Shown: positions 7,596 through 35,809 of the stretch, one piece after another
Layout: each line of letters starts with the position of its first letter
Numbering within the stretch: the stretch's first letter is position 1
NCBI GenBank assembly: GCA_017408395.1
Contig: JAFQUQ010000019.1
Span: forward strand, 1-48,935
DNA: 48,935 bases
Direction: 5' to 3'
DNA from: Oscillospiraceae bacterium
GTDB lineage: Bacteria; Bacillota; Clostridia; Oscillospirales; Ruminococcaceae
Position numbers and translations under genes: made by a program
The notes under the pieces: generated by a model
What the model saw: the letters and a program-made list of their open reading frames with translations, nothing else
Told to the model about the DNA's origin: nothing
Databases searched by the model: none

Positions 7596-8606
7596 ATGAA
7601 ATTAAAAAAAGCATTTACGATTCTTACCTGCTGCTGTATTGCTTTTTCTGCCTTTACAGGCTGTTCAAAGGATGGTGCTGAAAACAATGCAGAGCCTACA
7701 AACGAGGAGCTTTTATCACAGATTGAATCCTTACAGAGTCAGGTCGAATCCCTTAAAGCAGAGACTGTTCCCAACATTTCCTTCAAAAACAAAAATGACT
7801 ATCTTCTCGGAAAGGATAACCCTGCTGTAAGCGAGGCAGTTGCCGAAAAGGAAAAGGTTATGGCTGATCTTCCTGCCACTGTAACTATCGGCAGCGAAGA
7901 ATACAGCACCTCCCTCACCTCCCTTACTTTAAGCAATATGGAGCTGACCGACGAGGATATTAAAAACCTTAAATACATGGTAAACCTCACCGACCTGCAG
8001 ATATATCAGAACAATATAACCGACCTCTCTCCTTTAAAGGGTCTTACAAATCTGACAAACCTTTCACTGTTTAAAAATAAAATCAGTGACCTCACCCCCA
8101 TTGCAGGTCTTATCAATCTTGAGGGACTTTATCTCAGATCAAATGAGCTTTCCGATATTTCCCCTATCGACGGGCTTGTAAATCTCAGGGTACTTGATCT
8201 TTCCGAAAACAACATCACCGATATTTCTCCTCTTTCGGGTCTTCACGAGCTTACACTCCTCCGTCTCAACGACAACAACATAACAAGCATCGCTTCACTC
8301 GGCGGAATGAACAATATGACCCGTCTTCACCTTCACAACAACTATATAAGTGATATTTCACCTGTTATCGATATGATTGAGCTTAATGAGCTTTACATTG
8401 AAAACAATGCTGTTGAATCACTCGAGCCTATTATGTCACTTACAACAATTGAATGGCTCAAAGCAGGCTACAATCCTATTTCAAGCCTTCGTCCCGTTGC
8501 GTCGCTTACAGCGCTTAAAAAGCTTTACATAGAAAATGTGGAAGTTGACACGGAAACTATGGACTACCTTATAGAACAGCTTCCCGATACAACAATCGTT
8601 CAGTAA
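7596..8606 (+). CDS. Leucine-rich-repeat lipoprotein
   Basis: A 336-residue exported protein. It has a basic N-terminus, a hydrophobic stretch and a lipobox (FTGC), so it is predicted to be lipid-anchored on the outer face of the membrane. A short predicted coiled coil (about residues 36-57) is followed, from about residue 110, by some nine or ten 22-residue leucine-rich repeats of the bacterial internalin type (LxxLxLxxNxIxDISPL). Such repeats bind proteins or surface ligands; the partner is unknown. Start follows AAAGGA. The gene is only 35 bases before aroF with no terminator, so co-transcription with the shikimate genes is possible though functionally unexplained. Confidence 0.85.
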   Translation: MKLKKAFTILTCCCIAFSAFTGCSKDGAENNAEPTNEELLSQIESLQSQVESLKAETVPNISFKNKNDYLLGKDNPAVSEAVAEKEKVMADLPATVTIGSEEYSTSLTSLTLSNMELTDEDIKNLKYMVNLTDLQIYQNNITDLSPLKGLTNLTNLSLFKNKISDLTPIAGLINLEGLYLRSNELSDISPIDGLVNLRVLDLSENNITDISPLSGLHELTLLRLNDNNITSIASLGGMNNMTRLHLHNNYISDISPVIDMIELNELYIENNAVESLEPIMSLTTIEWLKAGYNPISSLRPVASLTALKKLYIENVEVDTETMDYLIEQLPDTTIVQ

Positions 8607-8641
8607 ATTTTATTTTAAATAAATTCTTGGAGGAACCAAAA

Positions 8642-9655
8642 ATGATTATTATTTTAAAGAAAAATGCAACAGAAGAATCCATTTCCAGACTTGAAGCCCT
8701 TCTTCAGAACAAAGGCGTAAAGGCTAACCATATTGCAGGTGCAAATCAGAACATCATCGGTCTCGTTGGTGATACCTCTCACATCGACATCAGCAACCTC
8801 GCTGCTCAGGAATGCGTTGAAGACATCAAGAGAGTTCAGGAACCTTACAAGAACGCTAACCGTAAGTTCCACCCGGATGATACTGTTATCGAAGCAGGCG
8901 GCGTAAAGATCGGCGACGGCTCACTCCAGATCATTGCAGGTCCTTGCTCCGTTGAAAATGAAGACCAGATCATGACAACCGCTATCGCTTGTAAGGAAGC
9001 AGGCGCTACAATGCTCAGAGGCGGCGCTTTCAAGCCAAGAACTTCCCCTTACTCCTTCCAGGGTCTCCGTGAAGAGGGTCTTAAGCTTCTCATCAAGGCT
9101 CGTCAGGAAACAGGTCTTCCTATCGTTACGGAAATTATGAGCCAGTCTGACCTTGATCTCTTTGCCGATATTGACGTTATCCAGGTCGGCGCAAGAAATA
9201 TGCAGAACTTTGAGCTTCTTAAGGCTCTCGGCAGATGCGACAAGCCTATCCTTCTCAAGAGAGGTCTTGCAAATACACTTGAAGAGCTTCTTATGTCAGC
9301 TGAATACATTATGTCCGAAGGCAATATGAAGGTTATTCTCTGCGAAAGAGGTATCCGTACTTTTGAAACAGCTACAAGAAACACATTCGACCTTTCCGCT
9401 ATTCCTCTTCTCAAGCAGAAGTCACACCTCCCTATCTGTGCTGACCCTTCACACGCAACAGGTATCATTTCTCTTGTTGATCCTATGTCCCTTGCTGCTG
9501 TTGTTTCAGGTGCAGACGCTCTCGAAATCGAAGTTCACAACAATCCTAAGATCGCTCTTTCCGACGGCGGTCAGCAGCTTACTCCTGATATGTTCAAGGC
9601 TACTATGGACAAGATCAAGGGTCTCTGCGGTTACCTCAACAGAAGAATCGGCTGA
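8642..9655 (+). CDS. aroF: 3-deoxy-7-phosphoheptulonate (DAHP) synthase
   Basis: Condenses phosphoenolpyruvate and erythrose 4-phosphate in the first shikimate-pathway step. Residues 1 to about 70 form a ferredoxin-like regulatory domain typical of the KdsA-related type I-beta group, beginning MIIILKKNATEESI. The catalytic barrel follows, with IIAGPCSVEN, MLRGGAFKPRTSPYSFQG, KRGLANTLEELL and DPSHATG. The start is at 8642, after GGAGG; an upstream in-frame TTG at 8627 is part of that site. Codon use is strongly biased, as in highly expressed genes. It is followed by aroB, aroA and aroC. Confidence 0.95.
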   Translation: MIIILKKNATEESISRLEALLQNKGVKANHIAGANQNIIGLVGDTSHIDISNLAAQECVEDIKRVQEPYKNANRKFHPDDTVIEAGGVKIGDGSLQIIAGPCSVENEDQIMTTAIACKEAGATMLRGGAFKPRTSPYSFQGLREEGLKLLIKARQETGLPIVTEIMSQSDLDLFADIDVIQVGARNMQNFELLKALGRCDKPILLKRGLANTLEELLMSAEYIMSEGNMKVILCERGIRTFETATRNTFDLSAIPLLKQKSHLPICADPSHATGIISLVDPMSLAAVVSGADALEIEVHNNPKIALSDGGQQLTPDMFKATMDKIKGLCGYLNRRIG

Positions 9656-9682
9656 TTTTAAATTAAAATTTCGGAGTAAACT

Positions 9683-10747
9683 ATGGAACACACAAGAATT
9701 ACTGTCAAGGCTTCGGGTACTTACGAGGTCATTGTCGGAAACGGTCTGTTAGAAAAAACAGGCGAATACATCAGAGAAGTCACAAAGGCTGAAACATTCG
9801 CTGTAATTACAGATGATACGGTTGATTTGCTTTACGGCGAAACAGTCTGCCGAAGCATCTCAGAAGCAGGCTTCACCGTATATAAATTCGTTTTTCCTCA
9901 CGGCGAAGCTTCAAAATGCTCGGATACCCTGCTTAAAATTTACAGCTTTCTTTGCAGCAATCACATCTCACGCACAGACTGCCTTATCGCTTTAGGCGGC
10001 GGCGTTGTGGGTGATATTACAGGCTACGCTGCGGCTACCTTCCTCAGAGGTCTTGATTTTATACAGATACCCACCACCCTGCTTGCTCAGGTTGACTCAT
10101 CCGTCGGCGGAAAGACCGCTATCGACCTGCCTGAAGGCAAAAACCTCGTTGGTGCTTTCAAACAGCCGAAGCTTGTTCTCTGCGACACTGACACGCTGAA
10201 CACTCTTCCCGAAGAATTCCTTATTGACGGTATGGGCGAGGTCGTAAAGTACGGTATGATAAAGTCAGAGCCGCTGTTTAAGCTGCTTGAAACCCGTACT
10301 ATAGACGACATCAGGGAAATTTCCGCAGAGGTAATTGAAAAGTGCGTTTCCATAAAGCGTGACGTTGTTGAAGCAGACGAGTTCGACAAGGGCGAAAGAA
10401 TGCTCCTCAACTTCGGTCACACTCTCGGTCACTCCATTGAACAATATTACAATTACACGGGTATCACTCACGGCAAGGCTGTTGCCGTAGGTATGAGAAT
10501 GATAACGGATATTGCCGAACGCAGGAATCTTGCGGAAGCAGGTCTTTGCAGCCGTCTTGAAAATTGTCTTGAAAAATACAAGCTCAATGTTCAGGTCGAG
10601 CCTGCCATATGCGAACTTGCAGACGCCTGCCTTAACGACAAGAAGCGTGAAAGCGGCAGTATCAGCATCATTATATGCAGCGGCACAGGAAAATCTTCCG
10701 CTGTAAAAATGCCCGTAGGCGAATTTATAGATTTTCTCAACAAATAA
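9683..10747 (+). CDS. aroB: 3-dehydroquinate synthase
   Basis: NAD- and metal-dependent enzyme that converts DAHP to 3-dehydroquinate. At 354 residues it has the usual length. Landmarks are FPHGEASK, the nucleotide segment ALGGGVVGDITGYAAATFLRG, PTTLLAQVDSSVGGKTAID, and the metal-binding NFGHTLGHSIEQ. The start follows CGGAG. It lies 27 bases after aroF and is probably in the same transcript. Confidence 0.96.
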   Translation: MEHTRITVKASGTYEVIVGNGLLEKTGEYIREVTKAETFAVITDDTVDLLYGETVCRSISEAGFTVYKFVFPHGEASKCSDTLLKIYSFLCSNHISRTDCLIALGGGVVGDITGYAAATFLRGLDFIQIPTTLLAQVDSSVGGKTAIDLPEGKNLVGAFKQPKLVLCDTDTLNTLPEEFLIDGMGEVVKYGMIKSEPLFKLLETRTIDDIREISAEVIEKCVSIKRDVVEADEFDKGERMLLNFGHTLGHSIEQYYNYTGITHGKAVAVGMRMITDIAERRNLAEAGLCSRLENCLEKYKLNVQVEPAICELADACLNDKKRESGSISIIICSGTGKSSAVKMPVGEFIDFLNK

Positions 10748-32907: not shown

Positions 32908-33213
32908 ATGCCCGTAATCATTGATACTGAAGAAACGACCCTGATCGCACACATTCAAGGCGAAATCGACCACCATAATGCGGCTGAAATACGTCGTGAT
33001 ATAGACCTTGCCGCTGACAAGCACCGCCCTGTGAAGCTTGTGCTTGATTTTGATGACGTGACCTTTATGGACAGCTCAGGTATAGGTCTTGTTATGGGAA
33101 GATACAAGCTTATCAAGCCCCTCGGCGGTAAAATTCACATCATAAACACCTCTTCACAGATAAAAAAAGTTATGAAGCTGGCAGGTCTGGACAGGCTCGC
33201 TTCAATCGAATAA
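32908..33213 (+). CDS. spoIIAA: Anti-sigma F factor antagonist
   Basis: 101-residue STAS-domain protein. Unphosphorylated SpoIIAA binds SpoIIAB in the forespore and frees sigma F; SpoIIAB phosphorylates it on a serine. The phosphorylation segment FMDSSGIGLVMGRY is present (Ser56/Ser57). The start follows ACGGAGG. It is the first gene of the standard spoIIAA-spoIIAB-sigF operon, which identifies it more firmly than sequence alone, since STAS proteins are numerous. Confidence 0.93.
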   Translation: MPVIIDTEETTLIAHIQGEIDHHNAAEIRRDIDLAADKHRPVKLVLDFDDVTFMDSSGIGLVMGRYKLIKPLGGKIHIINTSSQIKKVMKLAGLDRLASIE

Positions 33214-33226
33214 AGGAGATCAGATT

Positions 33227-33676
33227 ATGGCTGTAAAAAATGAAATACACTTTTCCTTTCCCTCTGAAAGCTGCAACGAAAGAATTGCAAGAATGTGCGT
33301 TACCGCTTTCATTTCATCCCTCAATCCGTCAGTAAGCGAACTTGCAGAAATCAAAACCGCTGTTTCCGAGGCTGTTACCAACTGCATTGTCCACGGATAC
33401 CGCAACAGAAGCGGTAAAGTAGAAATACTTGTCAGGGCTTCCGATGATAACACCGTCACAATTAAAATTTCCGACCGTGGCTGCGGTATTCCCGATGTAA
33501 AAAAAGCTATGGAGCCGCTTTACACCTCTGCACCCGAGGAAGAACGTGCAGGACTGGGATTTGCTGTGATGGAGTCGTTTATGGACAAAGTTACTGTAAA
33601 AAGCGTCGTCGGCAAAGGAACTGTTATCACATTGCAGAGAAAAATACTGTCAAGTGTAGGAGCTTTACATAACTGA
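33227..33676 (+). CDS. spoIIAB: Anti-sigma F factor (serine kinase)
   Basis: 149-residue GHKL ATPase that holds sigma F inactive and phosphorylates SpoIIAA. The N-box (EIKTAVSEAVTNCIVHGY), G1 box (ISDRGCGIPD) and G2 box (EERAGLGFAVMESFMD) are intact. Start follows AAAGGAG. Thirteen bases separate it from spoIIAA and 17 from sigF. Confidence 0.95.
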   Translation: MAVKNEIHFSFPSESCNERIARMCVTAFISSLNPSVSELAEIKTAVSEAVTNCIVHGYRNRSGKVEILVRASDDNTVTIKISDRGCGIPDVKKAMEPLYTSAPEEERAGLGFAVMESFMDKVTVKSVVGKGTVITLQRKILSSVGALHN

Positions 33677-33693: not shown

Positions 33694-34359
33694 ATGAACA
33701 GTTTAAAATCCGACAGATTTATTGAAGAAAATATGGGGCTTGTTCATCTGTGCGCCAACCGTTTCCGAAACAAGGGAATTGAATACGACGATTTGTACAG
33801 CGCAGGCTGCATCGGACTTATCAAGGCGGCAGGTGCTTTTGATACGGAAAGAGGTGTAAAGTTTTCGACTTATGCAGTACCTGTTATACTGGGTGAAATA
33901 AAGCGTCTTTTCCGTGACGGCGGTACGGTCAAGGTAAGCAGAAGCTTAAAAGAGCTGTCCCTGCGGCTTATGCGTATAAAGGATGATTTTCAGCTGAGAA
34001 ACGGACGTGAGCCTACCATTGACGAGCTTTGTGAAGCCTCAGAGGAAAATTACGAAGATGTTGTAGAGGCCCTTGCATCGGCAATGCCTGCATTATCGCT
34101 TACAGGTTACAGCGATGAAAATGACACAACGCAGATAGACATTGCCGTAGACCCACCCGATAATATGATGACGGAGCTGCTTTCCCTTCATCAGGCAATC
34201 GACATTCTGGAAAAGGACGATAAAATGCTTATTTTCCTGCGGTATTACAAGGATATGACCCAGACGGAAACCGCAAAAATACTGGGGATGTCCCAGGTGC
34301 AGGTTTCAAGGCGTGAAAAAAAGCTCCTGCTTAAAATGAGAAGCTTTTTATCCGATTAA
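33694..34359 (+). CDS. sigF: RNA polymerase sigma factor F (early forespore)
   Basis: 221-residue sigma-70-family factor. Region 2 (GLVHLCANRF, DDLYSAGCIGLIKAAGAFD, FSTYAVPVILGEIKRLFRDGG), region 3 (SLKELSLRLMRIKDDF) and region 4 (MLIFLRYYKDMTQTETAKILGMSQVQVSRREKKLL, landmark) are all present. It should drive the first forespore-specific genes after asymmetric division. Its place after spoIIAB separates it from the similar sigma G. Start follows GAAAGGA. Confidence 0.94.
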   Translation: MNSLKSDRFIEENMGLVHLCANRFRNKGIEYDDLYSAGCIGLIKAAGAFDTERGVKFSTYAVPVILGEIKRLFRDGGTVKVSRSLKELSLRLMRIKDDFQLRNGREPTIDELCEASEENYEDVVEALASAMPALSLTGYSDENDTTQIDIAVDPPDNMMTELLSLHQAIDILEKDDKMLIFLRYYKDMTQTETAKILGMSQVQVSRREKKLLLKMRSFLSD

Positions 34360-34388
34360 TTGACTTTATACACATTTGTTGTTATAAT
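34360..34388 (+). promoter_or_regulatory. Promoter of the zinc ribbon/EF-Tu-II/L12 gene
   Basis: TTGACT (34360-34365), 17 bases, TATAAT (34383-34388). The -35 starts at the base after the sigF stop, so the downstream gene can be expressed apart from sporulation. Confidence 0.85.
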
Positions 34389-34421
34389 TAATATTAATAA
34401 ATTTTATTTTTATGGAGAATT

Positions 34422-35015
34422 ATGACAATGAAGGTTTATAAATGCAGCTCCTGCGGTGCGGAGCTTGAATTTGAAATCGGAAGCAACATAAGTGTATGTT
34501 CATACTGCGGCACTAAAAATTCTAATGATGAGGACGGAGTTTTCATCGGCTGGAATCCCGATCTTACTAAAAACAACGCTGAGGAAAACAACCAAATTCA
34601 ATTTTCCATGGCAGCAGAAAATGTATTTTCTCCGGTCGGAAGAGGTCCTGCGGCAGTAGGTCAGATTTCCTTCGGCAGTGTAAAATTAAACGACCGTGTA
34701 AAAGTTATTTCCGATAACGGCAGCTGCACTGAATGTACGGTATCGGAAATTGAACAATTCCGTAAAAAACTCGATTTTGCCAAAAAAGGTGATTCAATCG
34801 GTCTTGTACTTTCAGACATTACCAGGCAGCAGATTTGCAAAGGTGTCATTATCATTAAGGGTGAGCTTGATATTGTACGTCTTAACAACCGCATTAAAAG
34901 CTATTACGTGCCTATCAATGACAGAGTCGGTGCAATAAATTATTATATGCAGGTTACAGGGCTTGGTCTTAAGGACGCAAAGCTCAAGGTGGACAATCTT
35001 TTTGCTGCAAAATAA
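34422..35015 (+). CDS. Zinc ribbon + EF-Tu domain II-like barrel + L7/L12 C-terminal-like protein
   Basis: 197 residues with an unusual domain order. Residues 8-29 form a four-cysteine zinc ribbon (CSSC...CSYC). Residues about 65-148 align well by eye with domain II of elongation factor Tu: ENVFSPVGRGPAAVGQISFG, KLNDRVKVI, EIEQFRKKLDFAKKGDSIGL and RQQICKGVIIIKG mirror the EF-Tu pattern. No GTPase domain is present. The last part (RVGAINYYMQVTGLGLKDAK) resembles the ITGLGLKEAK helix of ribosomal protein L7/L12. A role near the ribosome is inferred only. The start is either 34422 or the ATG at 34428; GGAG precedes both. It has its own promoter and terminator. I know no established name. Confidence 0.8.
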   Translation: MTMKVYKCSSCGAELEFEIGSNISVCSYCGTKNSNDEDGVFIGWNPDLTKNNAEENNQIQFSMAAENVFSPVGRGPAAVGQISFGSVKLNDRVKVISDNGSCTECTVSEIEQFRKKLDFAKKGDSIGLVLSDITRQQICKGVIIIKGELDIVRLNNRIKSYYVPINDRVGAINYYMQVTGLGLKDAKLKVDNLFAAK

Positions 35016-35017
35016 CA

Positions 35018-35055
35018 AAAAGCACTTCTGTATTAAACGGAAGTGCTTCTTTTTT
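35018..35055 (+). terminator. Terminator after the zinc ribbon/EF-Tu-II gene
   Basis: Arms AAGCACTTC / GAAGTGCTT with T-run; A-run on the other side lets it serve the converging AIM24-family gene. Confidence 0.9.
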
Positions 35056-35056
35056 A

Positions 35057-35131
35057 TTATTGAAAAATATCCAGAATATCTGCAGCGTCGCCTATTGCAT
35101 CAAGGATGCCTTCCCGGCGCTCACCCTTTCA
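35057..35131 (-). other. In-frame coding-like extension behind the AIM24 stop codon
   Basis: After the TGA at 35129-35131 the same frame stays open for 23 codons to a TAA at 35057-35059. The translation has protein-like character (ending ILDAIGDAADILDIFQ), as an amphipathic helix would, and the terminator begins only after it. This suggests a recent nonsense mutation, stop-codon readthrough or a sequencing error. Confidence 0.55.
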
Positions 35132-35809
35132 ATTGGATGTAACTATGTAAGGCTGAAGTGCACCTGCAAGCTTGCTGACAGGCATTGTCTGAATCCATAC
35201 GTGACCCGGACCTGTTACCTTTGTATTGAAGATACCTTCACCGCCGAAAAGTGCATTTCCTACGCCGCCTGTTGTCTGAATATCAACAGAACAGGTTGCG
35301 TCCATTAATGCAAGGTGACCTGTATCAAGAATGAGAGATTCGCCTGCTGCAAGGTCATATTCAATTGCAGAGCCGTCAATTTCAAGGAAAACTATGCCTT
35401 CACCATAAAACTTCTGCATAATGAAGCCTTCGCCGCCGAAAAGACCTGCACCAAACTTCTTCTGGAAGAAAATGCTCATTTCTACTCCCGGTGTTGATGC
35501 AAGATAAGCGGATTTCTGTGCAACAAGCTGCTTTCCGCCTGAAATCTGTACAGGAATTATTGAGCCGGGTACGGATGTTGCAAATGCAATTTCACCTGCT
35601 CCGCCCTGTGCTGTATACTTGTTCTTAAAAATGGACTCACCTGATACTGCTCTTGAAAGAAGCTTTCCAAGACCGCCGCCTGCTGTTGTTTCCATCTGCA
35701 TATTAGGTGACATCCAGGACATACCGCCCCTCTGACACTCAATTGTTTCACCTGCATCAAGCTTGCAGATAAGTACCGAAAACGGGGAACCCTTAACCTG
35801 ATAATCCAT
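35129..35809 (-). CDS. AIM24 / TIGR00266 family protein
   Basis: 226-residue beta-rich protein of the AIM24 family, which is widespread in bacteria and has no settled biochemical role. The N-terminus (CQRGGMSWMSPNMQMET) and the glycine-rich blocks GGGLGKLLSRAVSGES, AQGGAGEIAFA and GLFGGEGFIMQKF match the family. Start follows AGGAGGG. The encoded protein ends ...YIVTSN at a TGA, but the frame continues for 23 codons beyond it, so the ancestral protein was probably longer. It has a consensus promoter with a palindrome at the transcription start. Confidence 0.88.
   Translation of the reverse strand: MDYQVKGSPFSVLICKLDAGETIECQRGGMSWMSPNMQMETTAGGGLGKLLSRAVSGESIFKNKYTAQGGAGEIAFATSVPGSIIPVQISGGKQLVAQKSAYLASTPGVEMSIFFQKKFGAGLFGGEGFIMQKFYGEGIVFLEIDGSAIEYDLAAGESLILDTGHLALMDATCSVDIQTTGGVGNALFGGEGIFNTKVTGPGHVWIQTMPVSKLAGALQPYIVTSN

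Follow-up and report, generated by a model that had tools for sequence, protein, structure and literature searches.

A clostridial protein that joins a zinc ribbon, an EF-Tu domain II-like barrel, and an L7/L12-like hairpin

A gene on the forward strand of the window (the 48,935-nucleotide stretch of DNA from an Oscillospiraceae bacterium that was analyzed) encodes a 197-residue protein, P0001 (34422..35015), as read from its ORF and translation. In P0001 a zinc ribbon (residues 6-33, 34437..34520) is followed by an EF-Tu domain II-like barrel (residues 60-147, 34599..34862) and a hairpin resembling helices 4 and 5 of L7/L12 (residues 166-192, 34917..34997), all on the + strand. To judge from the two sequences, the modules, their order, and the protein as a whole are conserved in one relative, L004 (L004:390-968), which is 51% identical over its whole length and is the only full-length relative found. 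P0001 appears from these comparisons to be a new fusion of modules that are already known, and the three-module combination looks rare; none of the matches listed from Pfam, NCBIfam, PHROGs, or PADLOC is full-length, and no description of the architecture was found in the titles and abstract openings of the open-licence PMC literature. The original prediction of an ORF at this place, with a CxxC...CxxC zinc ribbon in front of an EF-Tu domain II at about residues 65-148, no GTPase domain, and a promoter of its own following the spoIIA operon, agrees with the results described below; it should be noted that its two statements about L7/L12 hold in part, as discussed with the hairpin.

The gene has stand-alone transcription signals that are recognizable by consensus. 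A sigma-70-type promoter of the extended form (TTGACT-17-TATAAT, 34360..34388, + strand), with a TG preceding the second hexamer, agrees with the consensus at 11 of 12 positions; five promoter-like sites occur in 901 bp, whereas shuffled sequence averages 2.4 (sd 1.8), and this site alone reaches 11. By sequence reading, a GGAG resembling a ribosome-binding site (34414..34417, +) lies 4 nt 5' of the ATG at 34422 and 10 nt 5' of an in-frame ATG at 34428, which is a possible second candidate start. An intrinsic terminator with a 12-pair stem, a 5-base loop, and a T tract follows (35020..35048, +). The near-consensus promoter and the 12-pair terminator together suggest that the gene is its own transcription unit, 3' of a set of genes resembling spoIIAA (32908..33213, +; Pfam STAS, 7e-22), spoIIAB (33227..33676, +; anti-sigma kinase, Pfam HATPase_c_2, 3e-22), and sigF (33694..34359, +; a sporulation sigma factor with Pfam sigma-70 regions 2 and 4, named sigF because of the gene order). 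The downstream neighbor encodes an AIM24-family protein on the opposite strand (35129..35809, −; Pfam AIM24, 1e-72). The gene has a lower GC content (0.407) than the window (0.431) and five neighbors (0.44-0.46), which is a weak signal. By eye, P0001 has no signal peptide or membrane segment.

The putative zinc ribbon contains Cys8, Cys11, Cys26, and Cys29 in a CxxC-x14-CxxC arrangement, and all four are present in L004; it gives weak matches to many zinc-ribbon models of Pfam and NCBIfam, none of them above cut-off. The fold of the barrel is assigned through homology: residues 60-147 match EF-Tu chains of the PDB (best E 2.4e-13), residues 54-147 match the NCBIfam EF-Tu model (E 1.6e-16), and the score against Pfam GTP_EFTU_D2 (E 1.7e-6, 28.8 bits) is slightly below the cut-off of 30.3, which the relative L004 exceeds (45.2 bits). 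The identity of the barrel to EF-Tu domain II is 28-40% among 75 rows labeled EF-Tu by their length. EF-Tu also has a G domain and a domain III, whereas neither Pfam nor NCBIfam shows a match in P0001 to a G domain or to domain III (GTP_EFTU_D3). An AlphaFold model from a two-sequence alignment (mean pLDDT 45.1, pTM 0.33) is below 50 at residues 35-109 and 111-152 and does not resolve the barrel.

Residue conservation was compared over 85 EF-Tu and 9 non-EF-Tu rows, with Salmonella EF-Tu as reference and the near-copy L126 dropped. Among the 57 positions at which at least 90% of the EF-Tu rows agree, P0001 keeps 25 residues and L004 keeps 27; the 32 changes in P0001 include Arg230, Arg233, Arg279, and Gln290, which are absent from both proteins and which we take to be partly interdomain residues, the three arginines being present in 99-100% of the 85 rows. 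The contacts of EF-Tu with the aminoacyl end of tRNA are presumably Glu215, Asp216, Phe218, Ile220, Gly222, Val226, Thr228, Glu259, Met260, Arg262, Asn273, and Leu277; P0001 and L004 each keep 5 of these 12. Because this proportion is to be set against 25/57 and 27/57 overall, there is no selective retention of these contacts, and nothing in the barrel sequences indicates that tRNA binding has been selected for.

In a tree of 44 barrels (35 of the 85 EF-Tu rows and the 9 non-EF-Tu rows, again without the near-copy L126), P0001 and L004 pair at 100/97 and join three barrels of surface-type (SLH) proteins at 98/90, in a group separate from the EF-Tu rows and from four small barrel-only proteins. 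Long branches are a feature of all nine non-EF-Tu rows, and the grouping with surface-type barrels may therefore be an artefact. The non-EF-Tu group requires three label changes, and on this 44-row tree the non-EF-Tu barrels may have one origin. In pairwise comparison, the best non-orthologue of L004 among the matches listed is the barrel-only protein L034 (79.0 bits).

The C-terminal tail of P0001 contains a predicted helix at residues 151-162 (34872..34907, +; AlphaFold, two-sequence alignment), ahead of the hairpin, whose predicted helices span residues 168-179 and 183-195; block means of the model are 61-78 from residue 151 onward, with residues 151-152 below 50. Individually, the tails score below the cut-off of the Pfam L7/L12 model (25.9 bits): P0001 reaches 14.5 bits (E 0.045) over profile positions 12-36 of 67, and L004 reaches 19.9 bits (E 0.00097) over positions 10-36 of 67. 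In a search of 41 genomes with the Pfam L12 model, the P0001 hairpin (15.7 bits) ranks below stretches, identified by eye as cysteinyl-tRNA synthetase-like, that score 19.7 and 17.0, and the single-sequence match alone is therefore no proof. An L12-like hairpin in the tail is nevertheless above chance in profile comparison, because a two-tail profile of P0001 and L004 scores 42.5 over 27 aligned columns against 31 clostridial L12 domains, whereas none of 40 column shuffles exceeds 13.8 and reversal of the profile gives 9.3. The same two-tail profile scores 24.4 against one EF-Ts N-terminal sequence, a weaker match than that to L12; a best match to L7/L12 and a lesser one to EF-Ts is what is expected for a shared EF-Tu-binding motif, and excerpts of two papers describe an alpha-hairpin of this kind as common to EF-Ts and L7/12 (PMC4739770; PMC6110070). 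P0001 has no match to EF-Ts in Pfam or NCBIfam and none to the L7/L12 N-terminal domain among the Pfam matches listed. A complete L7/L12 C-terminal domain was considered and rejected, since the match covers the helix 4-5 hairpin alone, or about 27 of the 67-68 positions of the bL12 domain. Thus the original description of the C terminus as an L7/L12 C-terminal-like helix applies to this hairpin and not to the whole domain.

The factor-binding face of L7/L12 presumably comprises Lys65, Val66, Ile69, Lys70, Arg73, and Lys84. The equivalents are Lys, Ile, Ile, Asp, Arg, and Lys in L004, and Arg168, Val169, Ile172, Asn173, Met176, and Lys187 in P0001, which is without basic residues at the positions of Lys70 and Arg73. 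Helix D of EF-Tu is part of the G domain, not of domain II. It is this helix that the L7/L12 hairpin reportedly contacts (Kothe 2004; Wieden 2001). The earlier proposal, in which domain II is what meets the C-terminal domain of L7/L12 when a translational GTPase docks, therefore needs a small correction, the reported contact being with helix D. With regard to the first position of the face, a passage of one study states that bL12 carrying the K65R substitution retains full activity (PMC6110070).

L004 comes from an Oscillospiraceae MAG, RGIG8511, a genome that entered the analysis solely through L004, and a uvrC gene lies 21 bp 3' of its reading frame; it was the 1 relative among 49 stretches from a contig scan with short P0001 peptides, a procedure that detects close relatives only. 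With P0001 as query, 172 of 197 genomes of the family sample match at 0.001; among the matches listed these are mainly EF-Tu-sized frames aligned over the barrel, and the only full-length match is the window's own. A profile built from P0001 and L004 matches 17 of 394 genomes of the order at 1e-20, 3 of 391 of the class at 1e-21, and 1 of 338 of the phylum at 1e-22; in these samples only the window's own match includes the tail, and the others fall within residues 28-156. It should be noted that the four samples, from family to phylum, share genomes and were each drawn from a larger group, and that some genomes in the order, class, and phylum searches had more first-look candidates than the 8 or 9 that were scored. 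In the genus of the L004 genome, 1 of 20 genomes matches, and it is that genome itself.

Five congeners of the source organism (two of them only 79 and 81% complete) show EF-Tu-sized or zinc-ribbon-only matches and not the three-module protein. In one of them (G002), the 180 bp from sigF to the next ORF contain no ORF of 90 or more residues; that next ORF resembles AIM24 by eye, and an AIM24 gene comes after it. Two further congeners differ after sigF, and the last two have no sigF match at 1e-50; adjacency to sigF is thus not seen in the three congeners with sigF or in L004. Gene order was rejected as a functional clue, since P0001 lies by sigF and L004 by uvrC. The scattered presence across the sampled genomes and congeners indicates that the gene is gained or kept sporadically. 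With P0001 as query, no EF-Tu was found in the source assembly (71% complete), and this is most likely an assembly gap because three congeners show EF-Tu-sized matches; the assembly encodes a true L12 of its own, at C9.

An origin from phages or plasmids was rejected, as neither the 50,697 phage records nor the 72,556 plasmid records contain a match with a query coverage of at least 80%. Fifteen phage records matched (6 annotated as EF-Tu, 9 without annotation at the site), as did 79 plasmid records, and among the best 20 of the 79 there are 16 annotated as EF-Tu and 4 without annotation. A viral collection gave no relative with P0001 alone as query; its contigs contain 12 EF-Tu domain II loci, one of them (L208) truncated, that carry EF-Tu frames. 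The PHROGs matches are weak, P0001 reaching 0.0055 at best and L004 0.0016. Membership of a defence system was likewise rejected, the sole match being TniQ_IF (0.051), on the zinc ribbon.

Both the barrel and the hairpin occur in other proteins. At least four free-standing EF-Tu domain II proteins of 120-140 residues were picked among the matches listed in a search dominated by EF-Tu, and in Pfam none of them matches a zinc ribbon or L12. One of these (L034:1002-1364), from the same family as the window, is flanked by an MPG glycosylase gene and a valS-like gene, with a gene for an NFACT RNA-binding domain before MPG and a spoIIAA-like gene about 4 kb downstream. Two others (L035:5037-5402 and L067:5219-5641), from two genera of one family, each lie between cysteine-desulfurase-like and nifU-like genes, and a divergent one (L068:1958-2335, − strand) shares its contig with a MobA/MobL-like relaxase gene; the neighbors of L034 and L035 were assigned with Pfam, and the others, as well as valS, by eye. 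EF-Tu domains II and III are found by Pfam, together with SLH and Ig-like domains, in two proteins of the genome G215 (L066:3490-8487 and 8551-10563). One 1665-residue SLH-type protein has in addition PLAT and zinc-dependent phospholipase C-like domains, and two further genomes (G616 and G666) have one SLH-type protein each, near-copies (L127 and L128) that look similar by eye. The N termini of these SLH-type proteins resemble signal peptides by eye. The CoCoNuT OB-folds, for one subtype of which an excerpt of a report lists EF-Tu domain II among the best structural hits (PMC11090510), belong to restriction proteins to which no link from P0001 was found.

The hairpin tail is present in three small clostridial proteins (L167, L168, and L169) that have a hydrophobic N terminus by eye and are above the Pfam L12 cut-off. 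The tails of P0001 and L004 match them over 39 columns that include the stretch preceding the hairpin, with a score of 55.2 that is biased upward because these proteins were found with the same tails. They are PRK06771-like (NF005269: 58.7 for L167 and 54.2 for L168, with a cut-off of 90), and unlike P0001 they have no zinc ribbon and no barrel; NF005269 is not among the 19 NCBIfam matches of P0001 (E up to 10). As a separate observation, L7/L12-like C-terminal domains above the Pfam cut-off form the ends of a protein that is secreted-looking by eye (L121, G019:C7) and of one that is membrane-type by eye (L122, G011:C62).

The reading of P0001 that we favor, tentatively and with less than even confidence, is that of a cytosolic adaptor that attaches to a translational GTPase. 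Attachment would be by the hairpin, to the G domain either of EF-Tu or of another translational GTPase. The barrel and the zinc ribbon, as second binding parts, would then contact RNA, the ribosome, or a partner protein where the factor is held, and P0001 would thereby modulate or sequester that factor; what P0001 binds, in which direction it acts, and under what physiological conditions are inferences. Consistent with this are the homology of the barrel to EF-Tu domain II, a hairpin of the EF-Tu-binding type of L7/L12 and EF-Ts, the factor-face residues of L004, the lack of a discernible signal peptide or membrane segment, the near-consensus promoter, and the location of the barrel-only L034, in a genome of the same family, next to the MPG/NFACT pair and the valS-like gene. 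Against it are the missing basic equivalents of Lys70 and Arg73 in P0001, a single-sequence hairpin score that does not exceed chance-like matches, the unselective retention of tRNA contacts, and the differing neighborhoods. Neither module by itself proves a role in translation, because domain II occurs in SLH-type proteins and the hairpin in proteins with hydrophobic N termini. It is unlikely that P0001 is a dedicated, stand-alone regulator of translational GTPases, in which a decoy domain II and a stalk/EF-Ts hairpin would imitate both the factor and its docking hook.

The alternative closest to the adaptor reading, doubtful but possible, is that the modules have left translation, the barrel being a generic binding or scaffold part and the hairpin a generic protein-protein tail of an adaptor in an unrelated process. 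The EF-Tu domains II and III of SLH proteins (by Pfam in G215, by match and by eye in G616 and G666), the L7/L12-like C termini of L121 and L122, and the 98/90 grouping with surface-type barrels all point this way, but the long branches weaken the last of these and L004 by itself is closest, among the non-orthologous matches listed, to the barrel-only L034. The loss of Arg230, Arg233, Arg279, and Gln290 would fit as well, although any freed domain II is expected to lose interdomain residues, and the hairpin is a specific EF-Tu-binding element.

The lost arginines also count against the proposal that P0001 competes with factors at the ribosome or acts in hibernation, with the barrel at the domain II site of the 30S subunit and the hairpin mimicking the stalk, so that factor binding is blocked. 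Both segments are derived from components that function at the factor-binding center, and the gene adjoins a sporulation operon. The unselective retention of EF-Tu ligand residues and the occurrence of EF-Tu domain II in SLH-type proteins weaken the proposal; its adjacency to the operon is not shared by L004 or the three congeners, the sigma-70-type promoter gives no evident stress control, and the architecture is confined to two of the genomes sampled, all of which make such a factor quite improbable. The least probable reading is a Pbp11-type binder of tRNA 3' ends that would hold uncharged or damaged tRNA. The weak matches to the Pbp11 model (NF041207) over the barrel (E 7.8e-4 for P0001 and 1.1e-6 for L034) accompany retention of the Glu259 and Arg262 equivalents, but the scores of 19.4 and 28.6 bits are far under the cut-off of 100, and the presumed aminoacyl-pocket residues Asp216, Met260, and Asn273 are changed in both proteins, as is Thr228 in P0001. 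Such matches may merely mirror a common EF-Tu-like ancestry.

If P0001 binds EF-Tu, as the adaptor reading would have it, bacteria can build GTPase-free translation regulators by recombining parts of the elongation machinery. Should it not bind EF-Tu, it still adds to the signs of EF-Tu domain II and the EF-Tu-binding hairpin moving about as independent modules among Clostridia, and the presence of EF-Tu domain II in SLH-type proteins bears on the origin of EF-Tu-like domains at cell surfaces.
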